The notes below the pieces were generated by a model. That model was not told the origin of the DNA. It saw only the letters and a list, made by a program, of their open reading frames with translations, and did not search any database. A DNA stretch of 64,000 nt, taken from positions 307,849 to 371,848 of the forward strand of contig NZ_LMRF01000002.1 of NCBI RefSeq assembly GCF_001424755.1, given 5' to 3'. The DNA is from Marmoricola sp. Leaf446. Lineage in GTDB: Bacteria > Actinomycetota > Actinomycetes > Propionibacteriales > Nocardioidaceae. The position numbers and the translations under genes are program-made. This document shows positions 3,122 through 18,701 of this stretch, one piece after another; position 1 is the first letter of the stretch; every line of letters begins with the position of its first letter.

Positions 3122-6100
3122 TCAGAGCTCGGCGTCGCGCCAGGCCACCTGCACCACGTCGACCCCGCGGTCGCGCGTGATCAGCTGGCCGCGGCCCGCG
3201 ATCGACTTGCGCGGCTTGGTGGTGCCGATGAGCGCGCCCTCCTGCGGGTCGCCCGACAGCAGCAGGCCGGGCATGGCCAGCTCGCGCAGCGACTGGATGA
3301 CGGGCTCGTACACCGCGCGGGCCGCGCCACCGGAGCGACGCGCCACGACGAGGTGGAGACCGACGTCGCGGGCCTGCCCGAGCACCGGCACCAGCGCGGC
3401 GAGCGGAGAGCTCGAGCCGGTGACGACGAGGTCGTAGTCGTCCACGACGACGAAGACCTCGGCGCCGGTCCACCACGACCGGTCGCGCAGCTGCTGCGGC
3501 GTGACGTCGCTGCCGGGCAGACGCGTCTGGAGGTACGCCGCGAGCTCCTTCAGGACGGGCTCCGCCTGGTTGGCGTTGGTGAGGTACTCGACCTGGTACT
3601 CCTCGGGCACCTCGCCGAGCAGGGAGCGTCGGTAGTCGACGGTGAAGACCTGCGCCTGTGCGGCGGTGCGGGTGCGCATCACCTCGTGGAGGTAGGTGCG
3701 CAGCAGCGCGCTCTTGCCCGAGCGGGAGTCGCCGAAGACCAGCAGGTGCGGCTCGCTGTCGACGTCGAGCCCGACCGGGGCGAGGTCCTTCTCGTCGATG
3801 GCGAGGTAGACGCGCTGGTCGCCGGAGCCGGAGCGACGCTCGGCCTGGGCGAGCACGTCGGCCAGCTCGATGCGCTCGGGCAGCAGCCGGAGCTTCGGGC
3901 CGGTCTGGCCCTTCCAGGCCTTGCGGGTGCGCTCGACGTAGTCCTCGACGCCGCGACCCACGCTGCGGGGGTCGGAGGTGTCGTCGACGCGGGGGAGGGC
4001 AGCGAGGAAGTGCAGCTTGCTGCCCCAGCGCTGCACGATGCCGCGCCCCGGGCGGCCGGTGGGCACCAGCTGGGCGACCTTGCGGTCGATCTCGGAGTCG
4101 AGCGGGTCGCCGAGCCGCAGCTCGAACCGGTTGCCGAACAGGTCGCGGATGGCCGCGCGGTAGTCGGCCCACCGGCTCGCGCTGGTGACGACGTGCAGGC
4201 CGAAGGTCAGGCCGCGCTGGGCGAGCACCTGGATCTGCATCTCGAGGTCGTCGAAGTCCGAGCGCAGCGTGCCCCACCCGTCGACGACCAGGAACACGTC
4301 GCCGTACCCGTCGTCGGCGGTGCCCTCGGCGCGCCGCTGACGGTAGGTCTCGATGGAGTCGATGCCCTGCTGGCGGAAGTACTTCTCGCGCTTGTCCACG
4401 ATGCCGGTGACCTCGGCGAACGTACGCCGCACCACGTCGGGCTCCGACCGCGTGGCCACGCCCGCCACGTGGGGGGCGCTGGCCAGCGGCGCGAAGGTGC
4501 CGCCACCGAAGTCCAGGATGTAGAACTGCGACTCCTGCGGCGTCGTGGTGAGCGAGACGCTGGCCACCACCGTGCGCAGCAGCGTGCTCTTGCCCGAGCG
4601 CGGACCGCCGACGACGGCGATGTGGCCGCCGGAGCCGGAGAGGTCGGCCTCGAGCACGTCGCGGCGCTGCTCGCGGGGTCGGTCGACGATGCCGAGCGGC
4701 ACCACGAGCCCGCCCCGGGAGCGCCAGCCCGGGGAGTGCAGCCCGAGCTCGTCGCTCTCGGTCAGGTCGCCCATCAGCTGGTCGAGGGTGTCGGGCACGT
4801 CGAGCGGCGGCAGCCACACCTGGTGGGCCTCGGGGCCCTGGCCGACCATGAGGTCGACGGCGATGTCGAGGATCGACCGGGAGTCGGCGGCCTGCGCGGC
4901 CGGCACCGGGGTGGCGTCGTGCTGCTCGTCGGTGTCGACCCGGGGCGGCAGCACGTGGGCGGTGGTGAAGGGCAGGATCGTGGTCGTCGTGCCGCCCGAG
5001 CTGCGGCCGCGACGGCTGCGGCGCGGGGGCGGGCCGGAGACGTAGGAGGCCTTGAAGCGCAGCAGCGTGGACTGGTCGGGCTTGAGGTAGCCCAGGCCGG
5101 GCACGGGCGGCAGCTCGTAGGCGTCCGGGACGCCCAGGACGGCGCGGGACTCAGCCCCGGAGAAGGTGCGCAGGCCGACGCGGTAGGACAGGTGGCTCTC
5201 GAGCCCGCGCAGCCGGCCCTCCTCCAGGCGCTGCGAGGCGAGCAGCAGGTGCAGGCCGAGCGACCGGCCGAGCCGGCCGATGGCCACGAACAGCTCGATG
5301 AAGTCGGGCTTGGCCGAGAGCATCTCGGAGAACTCGTCGACGCAGATGAACAGGCTGGGGAGCGGCTCGAGGTCGGCGCCCTCGGCCCGGGCCTTCTCGT
5401 AGTCGCGCACCGAGGCGTAGTTGCCGGCCGCCCGGAGCATCTCCTGGCGCCGCACCATCTCGCCGGACAGGGCGTCCTGCATGCGGTCGACCAGGGTGAG
5501 CTCGCCCTCGAGGTTGGTGATGACCGCCGAGACGTGGGGCGCCTCGGAGAGGCCCGCGAAGGTCGCGCCGCCCTTGAAGTCGACGAGCACCATGTTGAGG
5601 TTCTCGCTGGAGTGCGTCGCCAGCAGGCCCAGCACCAGGGTGCGGAGGAACTCCGACTTGCCCGAGCCGGTCGCGCCGATCACCAGGCCGTGGGGGCCCA
5701 TGCCCTGCTGGGCCGACTCCTTGATGTCGAGGTGGATCGGGCTGCCGGCCTCGCCGACGCCGATGGGGACACGCAGCCGGTCGCGGGCCGGCCGGTGGGC
5801 CCAGGCCTTCGCGAGGTCGAGGTCGTGCACGTCGCCGAGGCCGAGGAGGTCGAGCAGCTCGGGGGTCGCGGCGCTGGGGTCCTCGCGGACGGGCCCGTCG
5901 TGCATCTCCAGCGGGGCCAGCCGGCGGGCGTACGCCTCGGCGGTGGCGGCGTCCATCTGGTCGCCGGCGGCCTTGGTGGGGGCCTCGCGCAGCCGCAGCG
6001 CCGTCATCGGCACCCGGCCGTCCTCCAGGACGGCCTGCTCCAGGTGGAGCCGCAGCCGGGTGGGGTCCTCCAGGTCGCCCCACGACGCGGGCAGGTCGAG

Positions 6101-7114
6101 CACGGTGATGCCCTCGAGGCCCTCCTCGGGCAGCAGGTTGTTGCCCGGGGGGAGCGCGCCGCCGTCGACGACGAGCAGCAGGTGGGGCAGCGAGTCCCGG
6201 CCCTCGCCGGAGAACCGGGGTCGATCGCGCAGCTCGGGCGGCAGCATCGAGAAGACGTCCTCGAGGGAGTCGCTCACCATCCGGCTGCGGCCGAGGGCGT
6301 CGTTCTGCTCGGGGCTGTGGGCGTGGGGCAGCCACTTGACCCAGTCCCAGGCCGCGAGGTTGTCGGGGGAGGCGAGCACGGCGACGAGCAGGTCCTGCGG
6401 GGCGTGGGCAGCGGTGGCCGAGCCGACCAGGGCCCGGGCGAGGGAGCGGACCTGCTCGGCGTCGCCGGTGAGCTCGACGCGGCTGAAGGCACCCAGGCGC
6501 AGCGCGGCGGGCAGGTCGGGCTGCACCCGGTGCACTGCGATGAGGCGGTGCAGGGCGGAGGCGGAGACGGGGTCGAGCTGGTCGATGGGCGCGGACTCCG
6601 GCGGCACCAGCTCCAGTGCCAGCGCCTGCGAGGTGACGCCGAACCGGACCTGGAGGAACTCCTCGTCGTCCTTGCCGCGCTCCCACAGCCGCGAGCGCTC
6701 CTCCGCCAGCGCCGGCAACGCGGTCGGCTCGGGGAAGCGCCAGGTCAGGCTGCGGCGCTGCTGGTCGGCGGCGTCGCGGACCTGGGTCCGCACCCCGGCC
6801 AGGTAGCGGAGGTACTCCCGGCGACCGCCGGAGACCTTGTTGTTGCGCTGCTTGCGCTGCCGGTCGATCTGGACGAAGACGAAGCCGAGGGTGGCGACCA
6901 GGAACATGCCCGAGGCGATGTAGCGGGTGGGGCCGGCCTGGCCGGCGGCGACGAACACGATGGCGCCGACGCTGCCGAGCATGGGCAGCGCCATCATCAG
7001 GGCGCCGCTGGCGCCCTCGTGGGGCTCGAGCTCCGGCGGCGGCTCGAGGTGCAGCGTGCCGCGTGGCATCTGCGGGACGTCGAGCGAACGATCGGATCCC
7101 AGAGTGGCGGTCAC
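3122..7114 (-). CDS. eccC: Type VII secretion ATPase EccC (fused, three ATPase domains)
   Basis: Motor ATPase of an ESX/type VII system that recognises substrates and drives export at the inner membrane. It has 1330 residues from a GTG start, the length of fused EccCa-EccCb proteins in non-mycobacterial actinobacteria. Two membrane helices lie at about residues 36-55 and 62-80. Three FtsK/SpoIIIE domains follow, with P-loops GATGSGKS (~480), GGPRSGKS (~835) and GDSRSGKS (~1127). Only the first has a normal Walker B (CVDEFSEM); the others read VVDGWG and VVDDYD and lack the catalytic Glu, in line with the family, where the distal domains are regulatory. It is transcribed divergently from the rest of the locus. 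A later in-frame start is unlikely because the membrane helices begin near residue 36. Confidence 0.95.
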   Translation of the reverse strand: MTATLGSDRSLDVPQMPRGTLHLEPPPELEPHEGASGALMMALPMLGSVGAIVFVAAGQAGPTRYIASGMFLVATLGFVFVQIDRQRKQRNNKVSGGRREYLRYLAGVRTQVRDAADQQRRSLTWRFPEPTALPALAEERSRLWERGKDDEEFLQVRFGVTSQALALELVPPESAPIDQLDPVSASALHRLIAVHRVQPDLPAALRLGAFSRVELTGDAEQVRSLARALVGSATAAHAPQDLLVAVLASPDNLAAWDWVKWLPHAHSPEQNDALGRSRMVSDSLEDVFSMLPPELRDRPRFSGEGRDSLPHLLLVVDGGALPPGNNLLPEEGLEGITVLDLPASWGDLEDPTRLRLHLEQAVLEDGRVPMTALRLREAPTKAAGDQMDAATAEAYARRLAPLEMHDGPVREDPSAATPELLDLLGLGDVHDLDLAKAWAHRPARDRLRVPIGVGEAGSPIHLDIKESAQQGMGPHGLVIGATGSGKSEFLRTLVLGLLATHSSENLNMVLVDFKGGATFAGLSEAPHVSAVITNLEGELTLVDRMQDALSGEMVRRQEMLRAAGNYASVRDYEKARAEGADLEPLPSLFICVDEFSEMLSAKPDFIELFVAIGRLGRSLGLHLLLASQRLEEGRLRGLESHLSYRVGLRTFSGAESRAVLGVPDAYELPPVPGLGYLKPDQSTLLRFKASYVSGPPPRRSRRGRSSGGTTTTILPFTTAHVLPPRVDTDEQHDATPVPAAQAADSRSILDIAVDLMVGQGPEAHQVWLPPLDVPDTLDQLMGDLTESDELGLHSPGWRSRGGLVVPLGIVDRPREQRRDVLEADLSGSGGHIAVVGGPRSGKSTLLRTVVASVSLTTTPQESQFYILDFGGGTFAPLASAPHVAGVATRSEPDVVRRTFAEVTGIVDKREKYFRQQGIDSIETYRQRRAEGTADDGYGDVFLVVDGWGTLRSDFDDLEMQIQVLAQRGLTFGLHVVTSASRWADYRAAIRDLFGNRFELRLGDPLDSEIDRKVAQLVPTGRPGRGIVQRWGSKLHFLAALPRVDDTSDPRSVGRGVEDYVERTRKAWKGQTGPKLRLLPERIELADVLAQAERRSGSGDQRVYLAIDEKDLAPVGLDVDSEPHLLVFGDSRSGKSALLRTYLHEVMRTRTAAQAQVFTVDYRRSLLGEVPEEYQVEYLTNANQAEPVLKELAAYLQTRLPGSDVTPQQLRDRSWWTGAEVFVVVDDYDLVVTGSSSPLAALVPVLGQARDVGLHLVVARRSGGAARAVYEPVIQSLRELAMPGLLLSGDPQEGALIGTTKPRKSIAGRGQLITRDRGVDVVQVAWRDAEL

Positions 7115-7354
7115 GGCCCTACCCCTACGCGTCGTGGAGTCGTCGGCGGGACGGGGTGACGACTTCGGCGTACGCAACTGCCCCCGTGCGGCATGATGAT
7201 AGGTGCCTGTTCGGGGCCCCATGGGCAGAACATCCGCATCGGTCCGGGCGTGACGGACACACGCCAACCGCGGCCGTACGCCGACGCGCGGGGGGCTCCG
7301 TGCGGCACGGTGTCGCCGAGCAGTCACGCACACGAGAGGGCACGGGGGGCTCGC

Positions 7355-8887
7355 ATGACCATGCAGTCGGAGGCGCCGACGCCGCAGCCGGGGACCGGGG
7401 GCGAGATTCCCCCGGTGCGCCCCACGCACGGCGCCGACCAGGCGCTGCGGCTCAGCATCCTCGGAGCCGCGGGGCGGCTCGACGTCGCCGTGCCGATGTG
7501 GCTCGACGTCGCCGCCCTCGCCCAGGAGTACGCCGACACGCTCGGCCTCCCGGTCGCACCCCGGCTCGCCCGCGCCGGTGGCCGTGACCTCGAGCCGGCC
7601 GCCACCCTCGAGGACGTGCTCGAGCAGGGCGACCTCGTCGTCGCCGCCGACGCCGCGCCCGCCGCCGTCACGACGTCGGGGGACGCCGCTCCCGTCGGCG
7701 GTCCGGCCCCGCGTCGTCCCGCCGGCCGCACCTCCGCCGCGCTGCTCGTGCTCGCCGGGGTCGCGGGCTTCGCCGCCGCCGCCGTCGGTGCCGGCCTCTC
7801 CTTCGCTGCGGACGCCCCGTCGTGGGTGCGCCCCGTGGCCGCCGCGGTCCTCCTGGTCGGCGCCCTGCTCGTGGCCGCGCCCCGTCCCGAGGTCGACACC
7901 GGGGCCGACCCGGGGGGAGACACGGGCGCCGACGGCGGCCCCGACCTCCGCACCGGCTCCCCGCGAGCCCGGCAGGACGACTGGTCGTTCCTCGCCGGTC
8001 CCGGCCTGGCCGGGGCGGCCGGCTTCGTCGCCGCGGCCTCTCCGGACGCCGGCGGGCTGCTGCTGGCGCTGGCCGTCGGCGGGCTGGCGGCGCTGGTGGT
8101 CGCAGCGCTCGCCCGCACCGGTCTCGAGGGTGCCGACGAGCACCTGGCCCGGCTGTGGCTGGCCACCGGGGGCATCGTCTGCGTGACCGCGGTCGCGTGG
8201 CTGCTGCTGGGCGCGAGCCCGCTCGCCCTCGCGGCCGTCGGCTTCGGCGCCGCCGTGGTGGCGACCCGCGTGCTCCCCAGCTTCGCCGTCGACGTCGACG
8301 ACGACGTCCTCCTCGACCTCGACCGCCTGGCGGTCACGGCCTGGTCGGCCCGCGAGCAGCCGCGCAGCGGCCGCAAGCGCAACCAGGTGCGTCCGCGCAT
8401 GGTCCGCGAGGTCGCCCGCCGCAGCCAGCGCACCGTCGGCACCGGTGTCGTGGTCAGCGCGGTCGCCGCCGCCGTGACGGCGCCGTTCGTGGTGCTCGGC
8501 CTCGGGGGCCAGCCCACGAGCTGGGCCCGCTGGGGCGGTGTCGCCCTGGTGCTGCTCGGGGCGTCGTCCCTGGCGCTGGTGAGCCGCAGCTTCCGCTCCT
8601 CCGGGCTGCGCACCCTGCTGGGACTGACCGCCGCGTGGCTGGTCGCGCTGACCGGCACGGCCGTCGCGACCGACCTCGGGGCCGACGCCCTGTGGTACGC
8701 CTTCGCCGCCGCGCTGGTCGTCGCGCCCGCGGTCCTCCTCGCCGCCGTGCGGCTCGGAGGAGGGTGGCGCTCGGTCTGGTGGGCCCGCGTGGGCGAGATC
8801 CTGGAGACCCTGACCGGTGTCCTCGTCCTGGCGCTGGTGCCCCTGGCCTGCGGCCTGTTCGACCTGGTCAGGACCTCGGTCGGCTGA
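7355..8887 (+). CDS. EccD-like type VII secretion membrane protein (first of two)
   Basis: A 510-residue protein with a ubiquitin-like N-terminal domain (~25-100, starting ALRLSILGAAGRLDVAVP), a polar linker, and then about eleven hydrophobic helices from ~125 to the end. This is the layout of EccD, the subunit that lines the membrane channel of ESX systems as a dimer. ATG at 7355 has a purine-rich ribosome site (cgggggg); upstream in-frame starts have none. It is divergent from eccC with about 240 bp between starts. Sequence similarity to the second EccD in this locus is weak by eye, mostly in architecture, so the family call rests on topology and context. Confidence 0.75.
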   Translation: MTMQSEAPTPQPGTGGEIPPVRPTHGADQALRLSILGAAGRLDVAVPMWLDVAALAQEYADTLGLPVAPRLARAGGRDLEPAATLEDVLEQGDLVVAADAAPAAVTTSGDAAPVGGPAPRRPAGRTSAALLVLAGVAGFAAAAVGAGLSFAADAPSWVRPVAAAVLLVGALLVAAPRPEVDTGADPGGDTGADGGPDLRTGSPRARQDDWSFLAGPGLAGAAGFVAAASPDAGGLLLALAVGGLAALVVAALARTGLEGADEHLARLWLATGGIVCVTAVAWLLLGASPLALAAVGFGAAVVATRVLPSFAVDVDDDVLLDLDRLAVTAWSAREQPRSGRKRNQVRPRMVREVARRSQRTVGTGVVVSAVAAAVTAPFVVLGLGGQPTSWARWGGVALVLLGASSLALVSRSFRSSGLRTLLGLTAAWLVALTGTAVATDLGADALWYAFAAALVVAPAVLLAAVRLGGGWRSVWWARVGEILETLTGVLVLALVPLACGLFDLVRTSVG

Positions 8888-8929
8888 CCCGCGCCGTACG
8901 GGCCGGCCCGCGTCACCAACCGGACAAGT

Positions 8930-8997
8930 CGGATGTCCGCCATTGCTGGACCGATTGCGGGATATCTGGTTTGACCCGCGTCCGCCGGGGATATCTT
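8930..8997 (+). promoter_or_regulatory. Putative promoter region of the esx operon
   Basis: Upstream of the first WXG100 gene are CGGATGTCCG (8930-8939) and two copies of GGGATATCT (8959-8967 and 8988-8996). TTTGAC at 8970 and TATCTT at 8992 have near-normal -35/-10 spacing (16 nt). CGGATGTCCG recurs at 13453, upstream of eccD. The functional roles are inferred. Confidence 0.4.
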
Positions 8998-9099
8998 CGC
9001 TGTGATCCGTTCCACCGTGCTCCATCGGGGGGTGCGCAGCATTCGGGGCCGGGAAGGGCTCGGAAACCCGGAGGGACGAACGAAAGGGGGCTGGCTGAC

Positions 9100-9411
9100 A
9101 TGGCCGGCGAGGTAACCAAGCAAGATCAGTCACTCAACCGCGGGGCCCAGATGGTGGCGTCCGCCAAGGGTGACCTCGACCAGCAGCTCACCGGGCTGCG
9201 GGGCAAGCTCTCCAGCATCGGCGCCCAGTGGCGCGGCTCAGGCTCGTCGGCGTTCCAGCAGACGATGCAGCGCTGGGACGAGAGCGCCCGCAAGATCACC
9301 TCGGCGCTCGACGAGTTCGAGGCCAACCTGAAGTCCTCGGAGCAGACCTACAACGCCAGCGACGAGCAGCAGTCCTCCACCTTCAGCAAGCTGTCCGGCC
9401 GTCTCGGCTGA
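9100..9411 (+). CDS. WXG100-family ESX protein (EsxA/EsxB-like), 103 aa
   Basis: Small helical-hairpin protein of the type exported by type VII systems, usually as a dimer with a partner. The central turn has the WxG motif as WRG (GAQWRGSG, residues ~46-49). The second helix ends in TYNASDE, which fits the YxxxD/E secretion signal. The length is typical. ATG follows a purine-rich site (gaaaggggg). The next gene, 27 nt downstream, is a second WXG100 protein, so the two probably form the exported heterodimer. Confidence 0.93.
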   Translation: MAGEVTKQDQSLNRGAQMVASAKGDLDQQLTGLRGKLSSIGAQWRGSGSSAFQQTMQRWDESARKITSALDEFEANLKSSEQTYNASDEQQSSTFSKLSGRLG

Positions 9412-9438
9412 CCCAGACCAGATCACAGGAGCAGGGAC

Positions 9439-9732
9439 ATGAACGCAGGAGAGCTCAAGGTCAACTTCGGCGGCCTCGACACGGCCGCCGCCGACATCAT
9501 GGGATCGGCCAACCAGATCGAGGGTCGGCTCGACACCCTCGAGTCCGAGCTGGCGCCGCTGCGCGCCGACTGGACCGGTTCGGCGTCGGAGTCCTACCAG
9601 GCCGCCAAGGCCAAGTGGGACGCCGGTATGGCCGACATGAAGCAGCTGCTCGCCGACATCGGCAACGCGGTGACGCAGTCCAACAGCGACTACCAGTCCA
9701 CCGAGAGCGCCAACGCCTCTCGCTGGGGCTGA
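9439..9732 (+). CDS. WXG100-family ESX protein, partner, 97 aa
   Basis: Second member of the WXG100 pair. The turn motif is WTG (RADWTGSA, residue ~45) and the C-terminal signal is YQSTE, matching YxxxE. The ribosome site is aggag, 7 nt before ATG. In known systems the two partners pack antiparallel as a four-helix bundle, and the YxxxD/E of one partner is read by the last ATPase domain of EccC. Here both partners carry a matching motif. Confidence 0.93.
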   Translation: MNAGELKVNFGGLDTAAADIMGSANQIEGRLDTLESELAPLRADWTGSASESYQAAKAKWDAGMADMKQLLADIGNAVTQSNSDYQSTESANASRWG

Positions 9733-9836: not shown

Positions 9837-10421
9837 ATGGTCATGGTTCACGACGGCGGCGGCGGGGGCGGCCGCCAGGTCCTGATGCTCCTCGACGAGA
9901 TCGAGGCCATCGCGCGTCAGACGATGGGGGCGATGCAGTCCGACGCCAACGCGCAGACCTCCACCTTCCGCAACGGCAACCTCGCACCCGGCGCCTTCAA
10001 CGGCCTCGAGCAGGGCCTGGAGTTCCAGGCCCAGGAGCAGGCGGCCCAGCAGGTCTTCGTCGCCACGATCGAGAAGGTGATGACCGACCTGGAGACCTTC
10101 GGCCAGACGCTGATGGCCAACGTGGCCAACTTCCGGCAGGTCGACCAGTCCAACGCCGACACCATCACCGCCATGCAGGCCGACGAGCAGGCCGCCACGA
10201 GCGTGATGGACAACGTCAACCAGGAGTACTCCGCGCCCGACCACACCTTCGCGTCGCAGGAGACCTTCCAGGATCAGGTCACGGGCAACGAGGCGCTCGA
10301 CGTCGAGCAGGACGAGACCACGCAGGTCCCGCTCGACGGCGGGGTCGACCCCGAGGTCGACGCCGACCGGGGCGACGGGTCGCGCGGCGACGGTCAGGGC
10401 GAGGGCGTCTCGTTCGAATGA
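9837..10421 (+). CDS. Putative type VII substrate or accessory protein, 194 aa
   Basis: Not recognised by family. After a Gly-rich start (HDGGGGGGRQ), residues ~15-130 are strongly helical and rich in Gln, Ala, Met and Glu with few Lys or Arg. Next comes NQEYSAPDH, a YxxxD match at the end of the helical region, as in exported ESX proteins. The last ~50 residues are acidic and probably disordered. There is no WxG turn. It has a good ribosome site (aggggg) before ATG 9837, lies between the WXG100 pair and a mycosin, and overlaps the mycosin start as ATGA. Position, fold type and motif suggest a third exported factor; this is inferred. Confidence 0.7.
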   Translation: MVMVHDGGGGGGRQVLMLLDEIEAIARQTMGAMQSDANAQTSTFRNGNLAPGAFNGLEQGLEFQAQEQAAQQVFVATIEKVMTDLETFGQTLMANVANFRQVDQSNADTITAMQADEQAATSVMDNVNQEYSAPDHTFASQETFQDQVTGNEALDVEQDETTQVPLDGGVDPEVDADRGDGSRGDGQGEGVSFE

Positions 10422-11773
10422 GCATCCGCGCCGTCCTCGCCGCCGCGCTGGGGTCGACGCTCCTGGTGGGGAGCGTCGGCGCACCGGCGCTCGCCCGGCC
10501 CGCGGCGGACGGGGTCGCCCCGTCCGCGAAGCGCGAGCCGGCCCCGCGCCAGTGGTGGTACGACGCGATGCGCCTCGACCAGGCCCACCGCACGACCACC
10601 GGGAAGGGCGCCCAGGTCGCGATCATCGACACCGCCCTGGACACCAGCGTGCCCGAGCTGCGCGGGGCCGACGTCTCGCTGGGCACCGACTGCTTCGGCA
10701 AGAAGAGCAGGCCCGTGACCGGCATGGCCTCGGACCACGGGACCGCGATGACGGTCGGCGTCGTCGGTCAGGGCAACGGCGGCGTGCTGGGGGTCGCCCC
10801 GGACGCCACCGTGCGCTTCTACGGGATCGACCCCGACCCCGAGCGGCAGGGCTTCGAGTGCGACTCGGTCCTGATCGCCAAGCAGATCCGCAAGGCCGTG
10901 GACGAGGGCGCCGACGTGATCAGCATGTCGCTGGGAGCCGGTGACCAGACCGAGGAGCTCGCCCACGCCCGGGACAAGGGCGTGGTCGTGGTGATGGCCG
11001 CCGGCGCGCGCACCGAGGACAGCACCGCCATGGCGCTGCCGGCCGGGCTGCGGGGCTCGTTCGCCGTGCTGGCGGGCGGCAGCGACGGCCTCCCGTGGAG
11101 CGAGAACCCCGTCGGGCTGGCCGACCTCGACGCCTGGCCCACCATCACCGCACCCGGGATCGAGACACAGCTCGGCGGTGTCGTCGAGGGCCGTGGGTGG
11201 GTGCAGGGCGAGCCACGCACCGGCACGTCCGGCGCCACGGCGATCACCGCAGGCTCGTTCGCGCTGCTGAGGTCGCGCTATCCCGAGGCGACCGGCAACC
11301 AGCTGGTGCAGACGGTCATCCACCAGGTCGGCGGCAACGACTCGGGCGACCTCAGCTGGACCATGAAGGCGGGCTACGGCGGCCTGTCCGTCGTGCGAGC
11401 GCTGGAGACCGACCCGGCCGGCTACCCCGACGAGTACCCGCTGCTGCAGGAGAACCCGAAGGCCGTCATCGCGGCCTACCCCGCCAACGTCTACCAGGAC
11501 CCCGCGGAGAAGTCGGGGTCCGAGCAGACGACCGGGTCCGGGGACGAGCCCGACGGGACCTCGACCGCGAGCGGCGCCGACCAGTCCGCTGCGGCCGACG
11601 GTGCGTCCTCCGACGAGGGCGGCGTGCCGTTCCTGCCCATCGCCGGCGGCGCGGCGCTGCTGCTGGCCCTCGCCGGTGGGCTGGTGGCGTGGCAGCGCCG
11701 TACGCGTCGCCCAGCCGCTTCGCCCGACGCCAGCACGACCCGATCCACTCCGTCCGCACCGACCAGGGGGTAG
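10418..11773 (+). CDS. Mycosin, subtilisin-like membrane serine protease (first of two)
   Basis: S8-family protease of the MycP type, anchored outside the membrane and needed for stable ESX complexes. The 451-residue product has a signal peptide (ending ALARPA), a protease domain, a Ser/Asp-rich linker and a C-terminal membrane helix (PFLPIAGGAALLLALAGG) with a basic tail. Catalytic residues are Asp in AIIDTALD (~71), His in SDHGTAM (~108) and Ser in GTSGATA (~271). Where subtilases have the oxyanion Asn (AAGN), this one reads MAAGARTED, so that Asn is missing. The start overlaps the previous stop (ATGA). Confidence 0.9.
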   Translation: MSIRAVLAAALGSTLLVGSVGAPALARPAADGVAPSAKREPAPRQWWYDAMRLDQAHRTTTGKGAQVAIIDTALDTSVPELRGADVSLGTDCFGKKSRPVTGMASDHGTAMTVGVVGQGNGGVLGVAPDATVRFYGIDPDPERQGFECDSVLIAKQIRKAVDEGADVISMSLGAGDQTEELAHARDKGVVVVMAAGARTEDSTAMALPAGLRGSFAVLAGGSDGLPWSENPVGLADLDAWPTITAPGIETQLGGVVEGRGWVQGEPRTGTSGATAITAGSFALLRSRYPEATGNQLVQTVIHQVGGNDSGDLSWTMKAGYGGLSVVRALETDPAGYPDEYPLLQENPKAVIAAYPANVYQDPAEKSGSEQTTGSGDEPDGTSTASGADQSAAADGASSDEGGVPFLPIAGGAALLLALAGGLVAWQRRTRRPAASPDASTTRSTPSAPTRG

Positions 11774-11779
11774 CACGAC

Positions 11780-13378
11780 ATGGGACCGAAGGAAGCCGAG
11801 CTCAAGAAGGCGCTCGACAGCAACCCCGACGCCCTGCTCAACGCCGAGCAGCGCTGGCAGAGCGCCAGCGAGGGCCTGATCGCGGTGGCCGAGGCCCTGC
11901 GGTCGCGACGCAGCGAGCTCCAGGTCGCCTGGCCCTCGGGCGAGGACGGCGTGGCGGCCACGGCCGCCTTCGAGAAGCTGGCCAGCCACGTCGAGGACAA
12001 CGCCGACCGGCTGCAGCGCGGCGCGGACGCCTGCCGGGCCGCGTGGCGGGCCATGGACCAGGCGGCCAAGGACTTCCACAGCCTGCCCGAGCCGCCCGCC
12101 GGGTCGGCCGCGCTCGGCCCCGACGCCACGCCCCAGCAGACGAAGGCGGCGGACGAGGCCCGGACCGAGGGCCAGGCGGCCCGCGAGGCCGAGGCCGCGA
12201 AGTACGTCGGCCAGATGAACACCCGCTTCAGCACCGCCCAGTCCCGGATGGCCGAGGCGGCGCCGTACGACGCGGGCGTGAGCCAGCCCCCGCCGCCCTC
12301 GGGCACCGACCAGTCCTACTCGGGCAACGGCGGCGGTTCCTACGCCGCCCCGGGCAGCGGCGGCACCGGTCCCTACTCCACGAGCACCAGCGGCACCTTC
12401 GCCGGCTCGGCCGTGGGCATCTCCATGCTCGGCGGCCGCCCGGTCCTCGGTGGCACCGTGCGCCCGGGCAACGGCCAGGGCGTCGGCGGTGACGGCGCGA
12501 CGGCCGACGGCGTCGTCGGCGGAACGGTCCCGGGCGCCGGGACCGGCGGTGCGGGCGGGTCGGGCGCGACCGGCGGCTCCGTCGCCGGCGGCAGCGCGGG
12601 GCTCGGCGGCGGCACGGGCGGCGCCATGGGCGCCGGTGGTGCGGCCGCGATCCTCGGTGGCGGCAAGGGACTGCTCGGCAAGGTCGGCGGCGCCGGGGCC
12701 GCCGGCCGTGGCGCCGGCGCGGCCGGCGCCTCGGCCCGGGCCGCAGGCGGGGCCGCCTCGGCCAAGGGCGGCACCATCGGCGGCCGGTCCGCCGGTGCTG
12801 CCGCGTCCAAGGGCGTCCTCGGTGGTCGCAGCGCCGCCACCGCGGGCGGGGCGGGCCAGACGGCCGGCGGCCGCAGCGGTGTTGCCGGCGGCCAGCAGGC
12901 GGGAGGCCGCAGCGCAGGCGGTCAGCAGGCCGGTGGCCGCGGCGGCGCGGCCGGGGGTCAGCAGGCCGGTGGCCGCAGCGCGGGCGGCCAGCAGGCCGGT
13001 GGTCGGAGCGCAGGGAGCTCGGGCGGCCGTTCGGGTGGCGCAGCCGGACGCTCCGCGGGTGCCGCGGGTCGACCGACCTCCGGCGGCATGCAGGCCGGTG
13101 GTCGCAGTGCGGCGGCCGGCAGCAACGCGCAGGCCGGCAGCGGCGCGACCGGCAGGTCGGGCACCGCAGCCGGGTCCAGGTCCGCCGCGCCGGGGAGCAA
13201 CGCGGCCGGCGCCCGCAACGGCGGCGCCGGTGCCCGCGGCACTGGTCCCGGCTCGACCGGCCAGGCCGGGCGTGGCGCCCAGCGTGGTTCCGACGAGAAG
13301 GCGGACACGCGCAGGTCCATGGTCATGGCCGAGGACTGGCTCGACGACGACGACGTCGCGCCCGACGTCCTGCAGTAG
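11780..13378 (+). CDS. Large Gly/Ala-rich putative type VII substrate, 532 aa
   Basis: The N-terminal ~150 residues are helical, with a WXG/PPE-like look: RWQSASEGLIAVAEALRSRR, then AWPSGEDG and a third helix ending DACRAAWRAMDQA. From about residue 165 it is low complexity, rich in Gly, Ala, Ser and Gln, with a block of GGQQAGGR repeats (about residues 370-412). The last 15 residues are acidic (AEDWLDDDDVAPDVLQ). This layout resembles EspB/PPE-like ESX substrates of actinobacteria, whose helical head is exported and whose tail is disordered. It begins 7 nt after the mycosin stop with a ribosome site (caggggg). Function is not known. Confidence 0.75.
   Translation: MGPKEAELKKALDSNPDALLNAEQRWQSASEGLIAVAEALRSRRSELQVAWPSGEDGVAATAAFEKLASHVEDNADRLQRGADACRAAWRAMDQAAKDFHSLPEPPAGSAALGPDATPQQTKAADEARTEGQAAREAEAAKYVGQMNTRFSTAQSRMAEAAPYDAGVSQPPPPSGTDQSYSGNGGGSYAAPGSGGTGPYSTSTSGTFAGSAVGISMLGGRPVLGGTVRPGNGQGVGGDGATADGVVGGTVPGAGTGGAGGSGATGGSVAGGSAGLGGGTGGAMGAGGAAAILGGGKGLLGKVGGAGAAGRGAGAAGASARAAGGAASAKGGTIGGRSAGAAASKGVLGGRSAATAGGAGQTAGGRSGVAGGQQAGGRSAGGQQAGGRGGAAGGQQAGGRSAGGQQAGGRSAGSSGGRSGGAAGRSAGAAGRPTSGGMQAGGRSAAAGSNAQAGSGATGRSGTAAGSRSAAPGSNAAGARNGGAGARGTGPGSTGQAGRGAQRGSDEKADTRRSMVMAEDWLDDDDVAPDVLQ
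12866..13053 (+). repeat. In-frame GGQQAGGR(S/G)A repeats
   Basis: Four copies of GGQQAGGR lie within a longer GGR/SAGG low-complexity stretch. The DNA units are near-identical (ggccagcaggccggtggccg type), so copy number could vary by slippage without a frameshift if whole codons are gained or lost. Confidence 0.75.
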
Positions 13379-13452
13379 TCCGCCCCGCCCCGGGTCGACG
13401 CTGCTCCGTCCGCGCCGACCCGGGGTAGCGCATCCCTGGGTCCGCCGTGCGG

Positions 13453-13462
13453 CGGATGTCCG
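13453..13462. promoter_or_regulatory. CGGATGTCCG motif upstream of eccD
   Basis: Exact second copy of the 10-mer found at 8930. It lies 150 nt before the eccD start, compared with 170 nt before the first WXG100 gene. A shared regulator is possible; the evidence is only the matching sequence and position. Confidence 0.3.
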
Positions 13463-13602
13463 TCAGGGGATCCGCAGTTTGCCGCTTCGGGTGAGGCGGG
13501 TCCGTTTGTGCCGATATCGTCGTCCCGTCCCGGTGACCGCGTCCGACTGCTCGTCGTGCGCCGGCCCGGGGCGTCCAGTCCAGATCGACCCGGGGGTGCT
13601 CC

Positions 13603-14970
13603 ATGACGCAGGTCGCCGTGCCTGAGGGCGGTGTCGCGGGCGGCGGGCTGCTGCGCCTGACGGTCGTCGTCGGCGAGCGTCGCCACGACCTCGCGCTCCC
13701 GGGGCAGCTCCCCGTCGCCGAGCTCGTGCCCGAGCTCGCCCGGACCCTCAACCTGCTCGACGCGGAGTCGGTGTACGCCGGCTACGACCTCGTCGCCGCC
13801 GACGGTCGCCGTCTCGAGGGTGACCTGGGGCTGTTCGCGCAAGGGGTCGACCCGGGCAGCGTGCTGACCCTGACCGCCGGCGTCGACAAGCCCGCGCCGC
13901 GGGTCTACGACGACGTCGTGGAGGCGATGGCCGACGCCGTCGAGGCCGACATGCGTCCCTGGGACCCCGCCACCGGGCGGCGTACCGCCCTGGGAGCCGC
14001 GGCGCTCGTGCTCGGGCTGGGCGCCCTCGCGCTGGGCCTGCAGCGTCCCGACCTCGTCGCCGGTGCCGCGGCCGGCGTCTCCGGTCTCGTCCTCGTCGTC
14101 GCCGCCGTGGTGCTCGCCCGGGTGCGGGCCGAGCACGAGACGGCCGTGATGCTCGCCTGGGCCGGTGTCGTGTTCGCCGCCGTCGGTGGCGTCACCGCCG
14201 CCCCGGCCGGTCCGGTGCTGGGCCTGCCGGCCGCCGTCGGTGCCGGCGCCGCCCTCGCCGTGAGCCTGGTGGCGGTGTTCGGCCTGACCGAGCACCGTGC
14301 GTCCCTCGTGCCCGCGGCCGCCGTCAGTGCCGGTCTCGGCGTCGCCAACGGCGTCGTCGCCGCCACCACCTTCGGCGCGCAGGCCGTGCACACCGTGCTC
14401 CTGGTCGTCGTGGTCCTCGCCGGCAGCGCCGTCCCGTGGGTGGCGCTCTCCTCGACCAGCACCCGGGTCCCGCAGGCCCAGGACCACGCCCAGCTCACCG
14501 CGGAGGCGTTCCCGGTGGACGCGGGGGCCGTGCGCCGCGACGCCAAGATCGGCCACGAGGTGCTGCTGGCGGTCACGGCGACCGTGGGCCTGCTGCTCGT
14601 GCTGACCGCGCCGATGGCGGTCTCGCTGGGCGTGACCGGCACCTTCGTCGCGGTCTGCGCCTGCGTGGTGCTGCTGCTGCGGACGCGTCAGTACCGGGTG
14701 GGACCCGAGGTCGTGACCGGCCTTGGCTGCGCGGTCGCCGGCTTCGCCTCGCTCTGCGTCGGCATCGTGCTGTTCCAGCGCTCCTGGCTCCCGGTGCTGG
14801 CCGTCGTGCTGGCCGTCACCGCCGTGGTCCTGCTCGTCACCACCCTGGTCCCGCGACCGCCCTCGGTCCGCTGGGGTCGGCTCGGCGACGTCGCCGAGCT
14901 GACCGCGCTGGTGGCGATGATCCCGCTGGTGGTGGTCGCGGTCGGCGTCGTGGCGGCGGTGACCTCGTGA
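13603..14970 (+). CDS. eccD: Type VII secretion integral membrane protein EccD (second of two)
   Basis: A 455-residue protein with an N-terminal ubiquitin-like domain (residues ~15-92, LLRLTVVVGERRHDLALPGQ to SVLTLTAG), a cytoplasmic helix (YDDVVEAMADAVE) and about eleven membrane helices. This is the standard EccD arrangement and the clearer of the two EccD candidates here. In ESX structures EccD forms a dimer surrounding the pore, so the two different copies might form a heterodimer. ATG follows gggggtg. About 225 bp separate it from the preceding gene, so it may have its own promoter. Confidence 0.88.
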   Translation: MTQVAVPEGGVAGGGLLRLTVVVGERRHDLALPGQLPVAELVPELARTLNLLDAESVYAGYDLVAADGRRLEGDLGLFAQGVDPGSVLTLTAGVDKPAPRVYDDVVEAMADAVEADMRPWDPATGRRTALGAAALVLGLGALALGLQRPDLVAGAAAGVSGLVLVVAAVVLARVRAEHETAVMLAWAGVVFAAVGGVTAAPAGPVLGLPAAVGAGAALAVSLVAVFGLTEHRASLVPAAAVSAGLGVANGVVAATTFGAQAVHTVLLVVVVLAGSAVPWVALSSTSTRVPQAQDHAQLTAEAFPVDAGAVRRDAKIGHEVLLAVTATVGLLLVLTAPMAVSLGVTGTFVAVCACVVLLLRTRQYRVGPEVVTGLGCAVAGFASLCVGIVLFQRSWLPVLAVVLAVTAVVLLVTTLVPRPPSVRWGRLGDVAELTALVAMIPLVVVAVGVVAAVTS

Positions 14971-15022
14971 CCGCCCGTCCCAGACCTGCCTCGCCCGGCT
15001 CGACGTAGCCCCGGCCCGCGCC

Positions 15023-15028
15023 TACTGT
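15023..15028 (+). promoter_or_regulatory. -10 box (TACTGT) for the LPETG protein gene
   Basis: TACTGT lies in a short AT-richer patch 50 nt before the ATG. It predicts a leader of about 43 nt that contains the ribosome site gggggaga. Confidence 0.4.
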
Positions 15029-15077
15029 TCGTCACGTTTTGCATCTGTACGCACCGCACATCGGGGGAGAACCACAC

Positions 15078-15980
15078 ATGACCGACCGATCCACCACGCG
15101 TGTCGAGGCGCCCGCCCGGCGCCCGCGACGCACCCGCCGCGCCCGGCAGTCCCTGGCCGTGACCCTGATGGCCGTCGGCCTCGTCGTGGGGGCGTTCGCC
15201 GCTCCCTCGATGGCCGAGGACGCCGGTCTCGAGACCCAGGCCGCGAGCACGCTCGACGCGGCCGCGCAGGACGTCCTTCCCGCGGCCGATGGCCTCCCCG
15301 GGCTGCCGCCCGGTCAGGATGGCGAGAACCCGGGCCAGGGTGGCGACAACGAGCCGGGCCCGGGTGGGGACACCCCGGGCAACGGTTGCCCCGGCGACCT
15401 CTACGAGGGCAACGACACCTGTGACCTGATCGAGGTCACGTGTGACAGCAATTCTGAGCTGGATCCTCTTACGGGTGTGTGCCAGATCATTTCGACGGAT
15501 CCCGACGATGACGAGGACGGGGAGACCCCCAACCCGAACCCCAACCCGAACCCGAACCCCAACCCGAACCCGAACCCGAACCCGAACCCGAACCCGAACC
15601 CGAACCCCAACCCGAACCCCACCCCGGGCACTCCCCAGACGCCGGAAACCCCGCAGACGCCGGGCACCCCCAGCGCCCAGCCCGGGGGCTACAGCGGCCC
15701 CGCTGCCTCGCCCGGCAGCCTCAGCAACCCCCTCGGCGTGGCCGAGGGCAGCGTGCCCGGTGCCGAGGCTGCTGCGCCGGTGACCTCGTGCAGCGACTCC
15801 GTCATCTGCCAGTCGGCCCCGGCCGCGACCTCGGCGGGCACGGCGACGACCGGCCTGCCCGAGACGGGTGCGGCCGAGAACAGCCGTCAGCTGCTCGCCG
15901 TCGGTGTCGGCCTGCTGCTGGCCGGTGGCCTGCTGCTCAAGCCCGGCCGCCGTGGCCGTCACCGCCTCGTCGGCGCGTGA
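15078..15980 (+). CDS. Sortase-anchored surface protein with Asn-Pro repeat (LPETG)
   Basis: 300 residues. A basic n-region (RRPRRTRRARQS), hydrophobic core and AFAAPSMAED cleavage region make a signal peptide. Next comes a Gly/Pro-rich segment, then a short module with four Cys (CPGDL, DTCDL, VTCDS, GVCQ), an acidic patch (DPDDDEDGE) and 15 consecutive Asn-Pro pairs. After a Pro/Thr-rich stalk it ends with LPETG, a hydrophobic helix and RRGRRHR-like basic residues, a complete cell-wall sorting signal. A sortase would link the Thr to peptidoglycan; no sortase gene is in this window. The start is chosen for its ribosome site (gggggaga). It lies inside the ESX locus, between eccD and eccB, so a link to secretion is possible but not shown. 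Confidence 0.88.
   Translation: MTDRSTTRVEAPARRPRRTRRARQSLAVTLMAVGLVVGAFAAPSMAEDAGLETQAASTLDAAAQDVLPAADGLPGLPPGQDGENPGQGGDNEPGPGGDTPGNGCPGDLYEGNDTCDLIEVTCDSNSELDPLTGVCQIISTDPDDDEDGETPNPNPNPNPNPNPNPNPNPNPNPNPNPNPNPTPGTPQTPETPQTPGTPSAQPGGYSGPAASPGSLSNPLGVAEGSVPGAEAAAPVTSCSDSVICQSAPAATSAGTATTGLPETGAAENSRQLLAVGVGLLLAGGLLLKPGRRGRHRLVGA
15531..15620 (+). repeat. 15 x 6-bp tandem repeat encoding (Asn-Pro)15
   Basis: Fifteen units of aaccc(g/c) in a row. The unit is two codons, so gain or loss of units keeps the frame. Eleven units end in g and four in c. Confidence 0.95.
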
Positions 15981-16016
15981 CGGACAGCGACACCGCGCAC
16001 CAGCACCGCCCGTGAC

Positions 16017-16048
16017 GTGACGCCGGGGCCCTCGGGCCCCGGCGTCAC
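16017..16048 (+). terminator. Strong hairpin after LPETG protein gene
   Basis: A perfect 15-bp stem (gtgacgccggggccc and its complement) closes on a 2-nt centre. It separates the surface-protein gene from eccB, so eccB-mycP are probably transcribed separately. Confidence 0.85.
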
Positions 16049-16110
16049 CCACGGCGCAGCACCTGCACCACCTGCAGCGACGACCAGACCGAGGGGAGGG
16101 CGGGGACGCC

Positions 16111-17454
16111 ATGTCGAGCAAGCGTGACCTGGTGGAGGCCCACGGCTACAACCGCCGTCGTCTCGTCACCGCGTTCGTCAGCGGCGCACCGGGCGGCCGT
16201 GAGGTCGAGCCCGTTCGCTACGGCCGCACCATCATCGGCGGCATCGTGCTCGCCCTCATGGTGGTGGCCGGGGCCGCGGTGAGCGGGTTCCTCCAGAAGC
16301 CCCCTCCCAAGGACTGGGACCAGGCGGGCCTGGTGATCGGCAAGGACAGCGGATCCCGCTTCTACGCCTACCAGGGCTCGCTCTACCCCATCATCAACAT
16401 CGCCTCCGCCCGGCTGCTCCTGGAGCCCGGCACCAAGCCGGTGACGATCGCGGACGACGTGATCGCCGGCAAGAAGGCCGGGGCGACCATCGGCATCGCC
16501 GGCGCCCCCGAGGTCCTCCCCACTCCGAGCGAGCTCGTCGACCAGGGCTGGACCGCCTGCACCAACTCCGGTGGTGGCATCCGCGTCAGCCTGACCGACC
16601 AGCCGCTCTCGCGCCCCGCCGACGGTGCGGCCCTGCTGGTGGAATCCGAGGGCAGGAGCTTCCTCGTCGCGGGCGAGCGACGGTTCGCCGTGCCCACGGG
16701 CTCGGCCGGCCAGCAGGTGCTGCGCTCGCTCGGCCTCGACGGGATCGCGCCCGTGCAGGTGTCCGGGCTCTGGCTCGGCCTCGTGCCCGAGGGCAGCGAG
16801 CTCGGCACCGAGACGCTGCCCGGCTACGGCAAGGCGGTGGACACCGGCGTCGAGGGGCTCGACCGGGTCGGGACCCCCGTCGAGGTGGGCGACCTGCACT
16901 TCGTGGTCAGCGAGCGGGGCACCCTGCTGCGCACCACCGAGTTCGCCGACCTCGTCTACCGCGCGTTCCAGCAGCCGGTCGAGAAGCAGCTGGCCGAGCT
17001 CGAGCAGCTCGACACCACGTCCGGCTCGGCCGGGCACCCCGGCGACTGGCCCGAGTCCGCGGTGACGCCGTACAGCCAGTCCACGACGCCCTGCCTGCGG
17101 ATGGACAGCGGCGAGGAGCAGGCACCGGTGGTCCGGCTCGCCGAGGTCACCGACGACAGCGCCCTGTCCGACAGCACCGAGCTGGTCCGCAACGTCTCGC
17201 TCCGCAGCGGCGCCGTGGTCCGCGCGGTCAGCGGCGCCAACGTCATCGACCAGGGTGCGGTCTACCTGGTCGACGGGAGCGGCACCAGCTACGCCGTCGG
17301 CAGCCGTTCGGACGGCAGCGGGCTGGTCTCGCTCGGCTACGGCGACTACGCACCGCGGCCGGTCCCGGCCTCGTGGATGGACCTGTTCGCGCCCGGCCCG
17401 CAGCTCAGCCCCGAGGCGGCCTCGAAGCGGCCGGCGACCGTGAGCCAGTCGTGA
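16111..17454 (+). CDS. eccB: Type VII secretion protein EccB
   Basis: Periplasm-side core subunit of the ESX membrane complex. The 447-residue product opens with the family signature: a short basic cytoplasmic segment (SSKRDLVEAHGYNRRRLVTA), then YGRTIIGG and one membrane helix (~42-60), then a large extracytoplasmic repeat domain. KPPPKDWDQAG and GTSYAVGSRS are typical of the family. The ribosome site is ggggaggg before ATG. Its stop overlaps the GTG of the second mycosin (GTGA), so the two are coupled, as in many ESX loci. Confidence 0.95.
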   Translation: MSSKRDLVEAHGYNRRRLVTAFVSGAPGGREVEPVRYGRTIIGGIVLALMVVAGAAVSGFLQKPPPKDWDQAGLVIGKDSGSRFYAYQGSLYPIINIASARLLLEPGTKPVTIADDVIAGKKAGATIGIAGAPEVLPTPSELVDQGWTACTNSGGGIRVSLTDQPLSRPADGAALLVESEGRSFLVAGERRFAVPTGSAGQQVLRSLGLDGIAPVQVSGLWLGLVPEGSELGTETLPGYGKAVDTGVEGLDRVGTPVEVGDLHFVVSERGTLLRTTEFADLVYRAFQQPVEKQLAELEQLDTTSGSAGHPGDWPESAVTPYSQSTTPCLRMDSGEEQAPVVRLAEVTDDSALSDSTELVRNVSLRSGAVVRAVSGANVIDQGAVYLVDGSGTSYAVGSRSDGSGLVSLGYGDYAPRPVPASWMDLFAPGPQLSPEAASKRPATVSQS

Positions 17455-18701
17455 CCCCCGGCGCCCGCCGTCGTGCCGGGTCGCTGGCCGTGGCCGCGGT
17501 GCTCGCGACGGCCCTGTCGCTCGGTGTCGGCGCGACGACGAGCCCGGCAGCGGCGGCGGAGTGCGAGATCGGCAAGACGCAGTACTTCGACGGCCAGTCG
17601 CAGAACCTCGTGCGCCTCGGCATCCCCCAGACCTGGCAGCTGGCCCAGGGCAAGGGGGTGGTGGTCGCCGTCGTCGACTCGGGCGTGAACGACGACAACG
17701 CCCACTTCCCCGACGGCGTGCTGCTGCCGGGGACGTCCTTCGTCGCCGGGGACACCGACGGCACCGGCCGTACCGACGCGCTCGGGCACGGGACCGCGGT
17801 GGCCGGCATCATCGCGGCGCGCGCCCTGCCCCGGTCCTTCGGGTCGGGCATGATCGGCGCCGCTCCGGCCGCCCAGATCCTCCCGGTGCGGGTCTTCACC
17901 CGCGACCAGGACGTGCAGCCGGGGGAGACGCCGCTGACCGGCGACAACATCGCCCGTGGGATCCGCTGGGCGGTCGAGAACGGCGCCGACGTCATCAACG
18001 TCTCGCTGAGCGCCCCCAGCACCAACACCTCCCTCGCCGAGATCAAGTCGGCCCTCGCGCTCGCCGAGAAGCGCGACGTCGTGGTGGTCGCGTCCTCGGG
18101 CGACTCCGACGGCACCGAGCGCGTCGAGCAGCGCTTCCCCGCCGCGGGTCGCAACGTCATCGGGGTCGCTGCGACCAACGCCCAGGGGTTCGTCGACGAC
18201 TACTCCGTGCACGGCGAGGCCGTCGACGTGGCGGCCCCCGGGGCCAACGTGCTGGTCACCTTCCACGGCAACGGCGACTGCCAGACCGGCCCGGACGTGG
18301 CGCTGACCAGCTGGGCCGCGCCCTTCGTCGCCGCCCTGGCGGCGCAGCTGCGCGAGCGCTTCCCGAAGGACTCCGCGGAGCAGATCGCCTACCGCATCCT
18401 CTCCACCGCCGAGCGCCCGGTGGCCGGGCAGCGCGACGACGACCAGGGATGGGGCGTGATCCGGCCCTACGAGGCCCTCACCGCCACCTTCGACACCCGT
18501 CGTGCCGGGCCGGCCGCCCCCGACCAGGAGAAGACCGAGGCGGTCGCGCTCGAGCCCACCGGAGCCCGGCCGATGCAGGCCACCACCGATCCACTCGACC
18601 CCGCGCGGCGCGAGGTGCTCTGGTGGCTGATCGGCGGCGGCGGCCTGGCGGCCCTCGCCCTGGTCTCCCGGCCGCTGGTGGCCCGCGCCCGGCGCGACTG
18701 A
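17451..18701 (+). CDS. mycP: Mycosin, subtilisin-like membrane serine protease (second of two)
   Basis: A 416-residue type VII-associated protease with signal peptide (ending [11 protein letters not shown]), S8 domain and C-terminal helix ([16 protein letters not shown]) with basic tail. The triad is Asp in VVDSGVN (~75), His in LGHGTAVAG (~112) and Ser in [11 protein letters not shown] (~286). The oxyanion position reads ASSGDSD, with Asp in place of the usual Asn. The [13 protein letters not shown] segment is typical of the mycosin N-terminal extension. GTG start overlaps the eccB stop. Differences from the mycosin at 10418 are large, so this is not a recent duplication. Confidence 0.93.

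Follow-up and report, generated by a model that had tools for sequence, protein, structure and literature searches.

A sortase-type protein encoded at a constant position in ESX-4-like type VII secretion loci, associated with a second mycosin and a PPE-like module

A 64,000-nucleotide stretch of DNA from Marmoricola sp. Leaf446 (NZ_LMRF01000002.1, positions 307,849 to 371,848; hereafter the window, whose numbering is used for all coordinates given without a locus handle) holds a locus for an ESX-4-like type VII secretion system (T7SS), in which the gene for a protein with a sortase-type signal fills a fixed slot, with eccD2 on one side and eccB on the other. This protein, termed here the anchor protein, is tied to a module comprising a second mycosin (mycosin 1) and a PPE-like protein, and it is well conserved in its lineage. 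No description of a sortase substrate inside an ESX locus was recognised among the open-access papers listed by literature searches. The locus (3122-18701) is confirmed by its gene content as belonging to the actinobacterial type (T7SSa), and begins with eccC on the minus strand, followed on the plus strand by eccD1, a WXG100 pair, hel, mycosin 1, a gene called 'big', eccD2, the LPETG protein gene, eccB, and mycosin 2. Much of it is ordinary, including both EccD proteins, the lack of EccE, and the two mycosins; the distinctive parts are the recurring module and the sortase-type protein between eccD2 and eccB. A first-pass annotation, made from the sequence alone, had listed eccC, the WXG100 pair, eccD, eccB, a second EccD, a second mycosin, and the LPETG protein, all of which are present at or near the positions it gave.

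The recurrence of the anchor gene is clearest within Nocardioidaceae (f1), the family of the source organism. EccB (PF05108) was matched in 163 of 294 genomes of this family. Outside the large genus g6, which is probably Nocardioides in the strict sense, 13 genomes are strong EccB positives: seven from g19 (Aeromicrobium), four from g1 (the Nocardioides aequoreus group), and one each from g11 and g23; a further non-g6 match (G015, E 6e-4) is not counted among them. Twelve of the 13 carry the anchor gene in the eccD2-eccB interval, and hel, mycosin 1, the PPE-like gene, and the anchor gene are all present in 10/10 complete non-g6 loci, the window included. A mycosin 1 alignment search of the 294 genomes returned more than 500 bits in 12, namely the 13 minus G170, in which a 130-bit mycosin 1 fragment stands at a contig end (L245, which runs from eccC through eccD1, the WXG pair, and hel into mycosin 1). 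Sixty own-family regions were compared, 11 of them non-g6 and 49 from the approximately 149 EccB-positive g6 genomes. Forty-five of the g6 loci are of an ordinary type (eccC in reverse orientation, then eccD1, two WXG genes, eccD2, eccB, and mycosin 2), with eccD2 adjoining eccB in 45/45; the other four (L046, L048, L050, and L051) are plasmid-like and hold two or three other genes between eccD2 and eccB. The first-pass annotation had staked its idea of a distinct subtype on related loci, and the comparison proved mixed: the anchor gene occurs in 0/49 g6 loci and a mycosin-1-type gene in one (the plasmid-like L051), while both are kept in the sister lineage. Two g6 loci (L072 and L077) possess hel- and PPE-like genes with neither mycosin 1 nor anchor.

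Beyond the family, a pattern scan of 99 eccB-holding loci identified the anchor in 16, two of them duplicate records, and extended its range to L236 in family f28 (LAKTG) and to L237 and L239 in f33 (LARTG), an Intrasporangiaceae-like family. The sorting-signal pattern is home-made and can overlook variants; conversely, in the g6 loci L060 and L067 it picks out one unrelated protein each, away from the slot. EccB is present in 33 of 149 f33 genomes, and among the 30 f33 loci read, the slot holds an LAxTG protein in five (four in g66, one in g205) and a 427-aa unlabelled gene in one, eccD2 adjoins eccB in 21, and three could not be labelled. The anchor is absent from all 17 named Micrococcales loci that show both eccD2 and eccB. 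After deduplication, 18 of 111 loci from three families carry it, always as the sole gene between eccD2 and eccB. Usable context was available for 108 loci, L040, L015, and L043 being excluded because a contig end cuts the module; the genomes of the first two (G086 and G123) have mycosin 1 on another contig. With mycosin 1 called at >150 bits to a profile built here, 16 loci had both anchor and mycosin 1, none had the anchor alone, 31 had mycosin 1 alone, and 61 had neither, the last class including some hel/PPE-like loci. Mycosin 1 thus accompanies the anchor in 16/16 loci versus 31/92 anchor-negative loci (Fisher p 3e-7, kinship ignored). An example of a variant that the sorting-signal pattern can overlook is a secreted-looking protein without a clean motif in the eccD2-eccB slot of L242 (11894-12751).

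On the EccB tree the anchor label needs four changes, at least three of them by well-supported branches, so the anchor gene underwent several losses or gains at this one position. The EccC tree (72 rows, midpoint root) groups the ten anchor- and module-bearing own-family loci as a single clade with support 96, adjacent to the g6 core loci; the branch uniting the two has support 80, and 15 Micrococcales rows fall outside. This topology suggests, without amounting to proof, that the module was present early and later lost in g6.

The protein at the centre of these comparisons is encoded as follows.

15078..15980, plus strand: LPETG (anchor) protein, Pro/Asn-rich, with a Sec-like signal, an LPETG sorting signal, a transmembrane (TM) helix, and a basic tail

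The protein shows the sequence features expected of sortase substrates: a signal at its N-terminus, an LPxTG motif, a TM helix, and a tail of basic residues. TIGR01167 scores 18.5 bits (cut-off 15.9) and hydrophobic helices span residues 25-43 and 272-290; the signal peptide was assigned by eye and hydropathy. Domain scans found no WXG or convincing adhesin domain in the protein. The whole genome of the source organism (3.8 Mb) encodes about three convincing LPXTG proteins: TIGR01167 gave seven matches at E up to 1, four of them above cut-off, one of which (L177) has no LPXTG on reading. Four sortase matches were obtained in the same genome, one of them clearly class E and located about 32 kb from the anchor gene. 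The Streptomyces class E sortase cuts LAETG (PMC10924467), which suits the LAxTG forms of f33 and f28 better than the LPETG of the window.

The remaining genes of the locus are listed below.

3122..7114, minus strand: eccC, fused EccCa+EccCb ATPase with three FtsK/SpoIIIE-type NTPase domains
7355..8887, plus strand: eccD1, divergent EccD paralog with a ubiquitin-like N-domain and about 10 TM helices by hydropathy
9100..9411, plus strand: WXG100 protein A, PF06013 53.5 bits (cut-off 27.3), E 3e-14; WRG, C-terminal YNASD
9439..9732, plus strand: WXG100 protein B, PF06013 77.9 bits (cut-off 27.3), E 7e-22; WTG, C-terminal YQSTE
9837..10421, plus strand: hel, 194-aa helical-hairpin protein with YSAPD, a candidate PE-like partner of the PPE-like protein
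10418..11773, plus strand: mycosin 1, second mycosin-like subtilase with a C-terminal TM helix, TIGR03921 140.5 bits, E 6.8e-41
11780..13378, plus strand: 'big', 532 aa, with a PPE-like N-domain (about 165 aa), a Gly/Ala-rich tail, and an acidic C-terminus ending WLDDDDVAPDVLQ
13603..14970, plus strand: eccD2, canonical EccD with a ubiquitin-like domain and 11 TM helices by hydropathy
16111..17454, plus strand: eccB, PF05108 205 bits (cut-off 27), TIGR03919 187.2 bits (cut-off 154)
17451..18701, plus strand: mycosin 2, the mycP adjoining eccB, TIGR03921 258.7 bits, E 8e-77

Four marks of a T7SSa locus are found: an EccC with FtsK/SpoIIIE domains, a WXG100 pair adjoining the core, EccB, and EccD. 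EccC scores 945.8 bits to TIGR03924 (EccCa, cut-off 509) and 834.9 to TIGR03925 (EccCb, cut-off 347), with Walker A motifs at residues 480, 836, and 1128; its GTG start at 7114 was hand-picked over the gene finder's 7069. That gene finder is home-made and skips genes, for example at 7704-10135 of L242. A scan of the locus for terminators and promoters gave none, shuffled sequences giving about one and zero.

Both mycosins are clear relatives of the TIGR03921 family but fall under its equivalog cut-off (278.75 bits). The catalytic D, H, and S residues are kept in both, as are N- and C-terminal hydrophobic helices. Across mycosin-1-type rows, D, H, and S are kept in 11/11 (L051 included). Among 43 mycosin-2-type rows, Ser is kept in 37 (the others having four Ala, one His, and one Glu) and His in 41 (one Gln, one row cut); at the oxyanion position 30 rows have Asn and 12 have Asp, one row being cut. 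Retention of Ser throughout mycosin 1 and its loss in some mycosin 2 proteins would fit a catalytic role for the former and a structural role for the latter. The mycosin 2 proteins lacking Ser come from six g6 loci (L052, L056, L057, L062, L061, and L071), and the substitution suggests that they are pseudoproteases. Separately, Nocardioides gilvus possesses a mycosin-1-like gene (L099:10001-11143) with no labelled T7SS gene within 10 kb.

The first-pass annotation had also described two large helical or low-complexity candidate substrates. Both genes exist, and the Gly-rich PPE-like one encodes 532 residues; the helical one, at just 194 residues (9837-10421), is not large. A YxxxD/E motif is present in hel and in both WXG proteins. 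Pfam and NCBIfam scans returned no notable family match for hel, and a structure search gave weak Protein Data Bank rows only (best E 0.3 and above), several of them Esx or PE proteins. The N-domain of 'big' was modelled with a predicted local distance difference test (pLDDT) value of 90, and PPE41 chains align to it with TM-scores of 0.68-0.71, the top among the 50 matches listed. The same module (WXG pair, hel, mycosin 1, and PPE-like gene) was found in Microbacteriaceae, Cellulomonas, Occultella, Phycicoccus, and Nostocoides, in a scan that covered 79 loci, drawn from the top 80 of 187 relatives, and many of whose lower rows are unrelated subtilases; outside the family, hel and PPE-like genes were often identified by position rather than by profile. 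The internal order of the module is constant and its orientation relative to eccB is reversed in most Micrococcales loci read, so the module behaves as a unit.

Other gene sets were noted around this module. In one g19 locus, the PPE-like gene and eccD2 are separated by an additional WXG100 pair (L038:12177-12826). Three-gene helical/WXG-like sets, alike by eye between f33 and f13, lie inside T7SS loci (L237:6071-8224, L239:12385-14547, and L242:12780-15005) and are possible effector sets. Leifsonia-type loci encode an opposite-strand membrane protein near mycosin 2 (L114:3867-4571, L115:3997-4680, and L125:3909-4586) with repeated TVVVDR/TVIVDR-like motifs, which we take to resemble FHA phospho-threonine targets.

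With a probability of roughly 0.55, we read the locus as an ESX-4-type exporter that has a cargo module of the PE/PPE-like kind, a mycosin that processes cargo, and an accessory fixed to the wall. Gene identities, catalytic triads, the sorting signal, and the co-occurrence of anchor and module are read directly from sequence, and from them we infer each functional step. The core machine would consist of EccB, EccC, the EccD1-EccD2 pair, and mycosin 2, into which a cargo module (the WXG100 pair, PE-like hel, mycosin 1, and the PPE-like Gly-rich protein) would be embedded. EccC would recognise helical dimers through their YxxxD/E tails and drive them through a membrane raft of EccD pairs, with mycosin 2 capping and stabilising the EccB ring in the manner of MycP5 and mycosin 1 processing PPE-like cargo on the outside. 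The anchor protein, exported by Sec and fixed to peptidoglycan by a housekeeping sortase, would serve as a wall-spanning scaffold or as a receptor for exported cargo. Since an anchor-type protein stands in the same place in similar clusters of some other families, it may be a real part of the machine, and its own Sec-like signal makes a wall-side accessory more likely than cargo.

Several observations weigh against this proposal. Thirty-one mycosin 1 loci lack the anchor, and in G170 (g19; 400 contigs, 8% contamination) eccD2 adjoins eccB without it (L043). The anchor motif is LPxTG in 9 of 12 non-g6 family genomes and LPDAG or LPAAG in the other three, all from g19. Homology across families is weak: a profile of the own-family C-terminus recovers two of the six proteins from other families, at E 3e-5 and 5e-4, and unrelated proteins appear at 0.003-0.006. 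The anchor protein is also of low complexity and might be a wall protein of any kind that has travelled with the locus. Nor is the module complete everywhere: the f33 loci L287, L293, and L301 encode WXG and hel/PPE-like proteins but no mycosin 1. Its cargo assignments are also imperfect. The hel model (helices 11-46 and 58-130) is poor, with a mean pLDDT of 65.7; the PPE match of 'big' is a helical bundle with no Foldseek E below 0.001 and a Z score tied with BAR and ESCRT-III folds; and the PPE sequence model PF00823 reaches 13.5 bits, below its cut-off of 26. The PE model PF00934 had no match in the source genome, in a weak search whose control matched in E. coli only. Finally, the oxyanion Asn is replaced in both window mycosins, by Ala in mycosin 1 and by Asp in mycosin 2, which may make the two enzymes slow or altered.

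Some of these points would be expected if the locus were an ordinary ESX-4-like system and the LPETG gene a passenger, a surface-protein gene settled beside eccB with no role in secretion. The gene is missing from the 31 mycosin 1 loci and from 49/49 g6 loci, and its low-complexity products have little sequence in common across families. We nonetheless consider this doubtful, given a gene that is directly flanked by eccD2 and eccB, on the same strand, in three families, that is kept in 12/13 genomes of its lineage, that was always accompanied by mycosin 1 in loci with usable context, and that belongs to a genome with so few convincing LPXTG proteins. A different objection concerns mycosin 1, which could be a second structural mycosin forming mixed caps with mycosin 2 rather than a cargo protease. 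The terminal hydrophobic helices common to both mycosins would allow this, and the ESX-5 mycosin is structural, with three copies per complex (PMC8131196); the idea is rather improbable, however, for a gene that lies inside the cargo module instead of beside eccB, inverts with that module, and keeps its catalytic triad. Least probable by our estimate is that the anchored protein is a displayed effector or adhesin whose export or assembly the T7SS aids, the machine's product thus being tied to the wall, as the first-pass annotation had suggested: an LPxTG-type signal with a low-complexity stalk is typical of displayed proteins and the 16/16 association with mycosin 1 agrees with it, yet the protein has its own N-terminal Sec-like signal and neither a WXG nor a convincing adhesin domain.

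The two EccD proteins are paralogs that differ strongly in sequence. EccD2 is canonical (TIGR03920 116.9 bits, cut-off 95; PF19053 123.8; YukD 57.7), and EccD1 scores 55.4 bits to PF19053 (cut-off 30) but just 25.9 to the NCBIfam EccD model (cut-off 95). In the aligned EccD1 set PF19053 is matched in 15/15 and YukD in 8/15 at E 0.01, the EccD1 of the window having no YukD match. Direct comparison of EccD1 and EccD2 by BLAST is not significant (E 0.28), and a profile comparison over 435 columns gives E 3e-21. EccE (TIGR03923) had no match across the source genome, in a search in which no positive control matched; the same model matches in 33 of 148 genomes of the class, 19 above cut-off. This agrees with the first-pass remark that no EccE-like gene was seen. 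The g6 genome G061 gave an EccE match below threshold (19.8 bits). No EccA was found among the scanned locus genes, the search for it being confined to those. By these searches the EccE of ESX-1, ESX-2, ESX-3, and ESX-5 was not found, in agreement with ESX-4, which has none.

None of these features marks a new subtype, as the first-pass annotation had proposed. Both EccD proteins are present in 44 of the 45 ordinary g6 loci (L083 has no labelled eccD1), as well as in f13, f33, and f28 genomes. The absence of EccE and EccA matches the published composition of ESX-4 (PMC4791881), and two mycosins are not unprecedented, a Micromonospora lupini cluster having two mycP genes (PMC4182475).

A class-wide sample does link paired EccD proteins with missing EccE. 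EccD was over cut-off in 31 of 118 genomes, eight of which (G000, G019, G006, G029, G044, G305, G339, and G368) have two EccD matches within about 10 kb, the second in G006 being slightly below cut-off. EccE was matched in 0/8 of these versus 17/23 other EccD-positive genomes (Fisher p 4e-4, kinship ignored); some of the 17 lie under the model cut-off (e.g., G330 and G347), and membership of all 31 genomes in the 148-genome EccE search was deduced from handle numbers. Six EccD-positive genomes are unpaired and EccE-negative (G320, G329, G361, G376, G387, and G389). One speculative and unlikely reading is a widespread actinobacterial T7SS branch in which two ancient EccD paralogs replace the identical EccD pair and its EccE clamp, the bent and extended states being fixed by gene, and in which some members add a dedicated sortase-anchored wall component carrying secretion or cargo assembly across the thick wall. 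Family f17 (G329, G361, G376, and G387) speaks against it, as its EccD loci have neither a paired EccD nor a detectable EccE; as a general rule, replacement of EccE by EccD1 was rejected on these single-EccD genomes.

As read from the sequence, one flank of the locus holds what we take to be purC together with two small genes, and the opposite flank purS/purQ. In the genus of the source organism, purS was matched in 22 of 24 genomes, at 23 places. The T7SS end lies upstream in four, and purC-side genes directly adjoin or are one gene away in three (L187, L190, and L193); of the remaining 16, 15 have other genes upstream (1.5 kb in view) and L189 is at a contig end. By this survey the locus is an island that some genomes have and others lack at the purC-purS site. 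The contents of the site vary among members of the genus (L187-L205), and it may be an insertion hot spot.

To our knowledge, how T7SS cargo crosses the cell wall after the membrane complex is an unsolved problem. For environmental actinobacteria, a wall-anchored protein encoded at a constant position among the genes of the machine itself is a candidate wall-side component that can be tested directly. A natural system with paired EccD proteins and no EccE could show which aspects of the asymmetry between EccD copies are important. The two mycosins, in turn, may allow the structural role to be told apart from the proteolytic one, both of which fall to a single mycosin in mycobacteria.

Among known systems, the closest is ESX-4, whose clusters have been recorded in Propionibacteriales, with frequent insertions outside Mycolata, and which EccA and EccE join only in later clusters (PMC4791881). 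The locus shares with it EccB, EccC, EccD, MycP, and the WXG100 pair, and adds a second EccD paralog, a second mycosin with the PE/PPE-like module, and the sortase-type protein. The ESX-4-type cluster of Micromonospora lupini has eccC, esxA, esxB, eccD, eccB, and two mycP genes in common with it, and differs in possessing eccE and one eccD; the available part of that report mentions no anchored protein (PMC4182475). EccB, EccC, and EccD are also components of the ESX-5 and ESX-3 membrane complexes, as is MycP in ESX-5 (PMC8131196, PMC6986878). The ESX-5 complex contains six EccB, six EccC, 12 EccD, six EccE, and three MycP, the last stabilising assembly (PMC8131196), and each ESX-3 protomer has two conformationally distinct EccD3, one kept extended by EccE3 contacts (PMC6986878). 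In both systems the two EccD copies per protomer adopt distinct states (inner/outer or bent/extended), but they are the same protein, with EccE contacts holding one state, whereas here two genes encode them and no EccE was found. Compared with the PE25-PPE41 and PE8-PPE15 pairs, a predicted long-helix PPE-like domain and a smaller helical partner encoded nearby are shared; the differences are an identity of 15-20%, partner genes split by the mycosin 1 gene, and a PPE sequence model that is not passed. The anchor protein itself resembles actinobacterial LPXTG/LAXTG sortase substrates in its signal peptide, LPxTG or LAxTG motif, hydrophobic helix, and basic tail (PMC10924467), and is set apart from them by a gene that lies inside a T7SS locus, at a fixed position.

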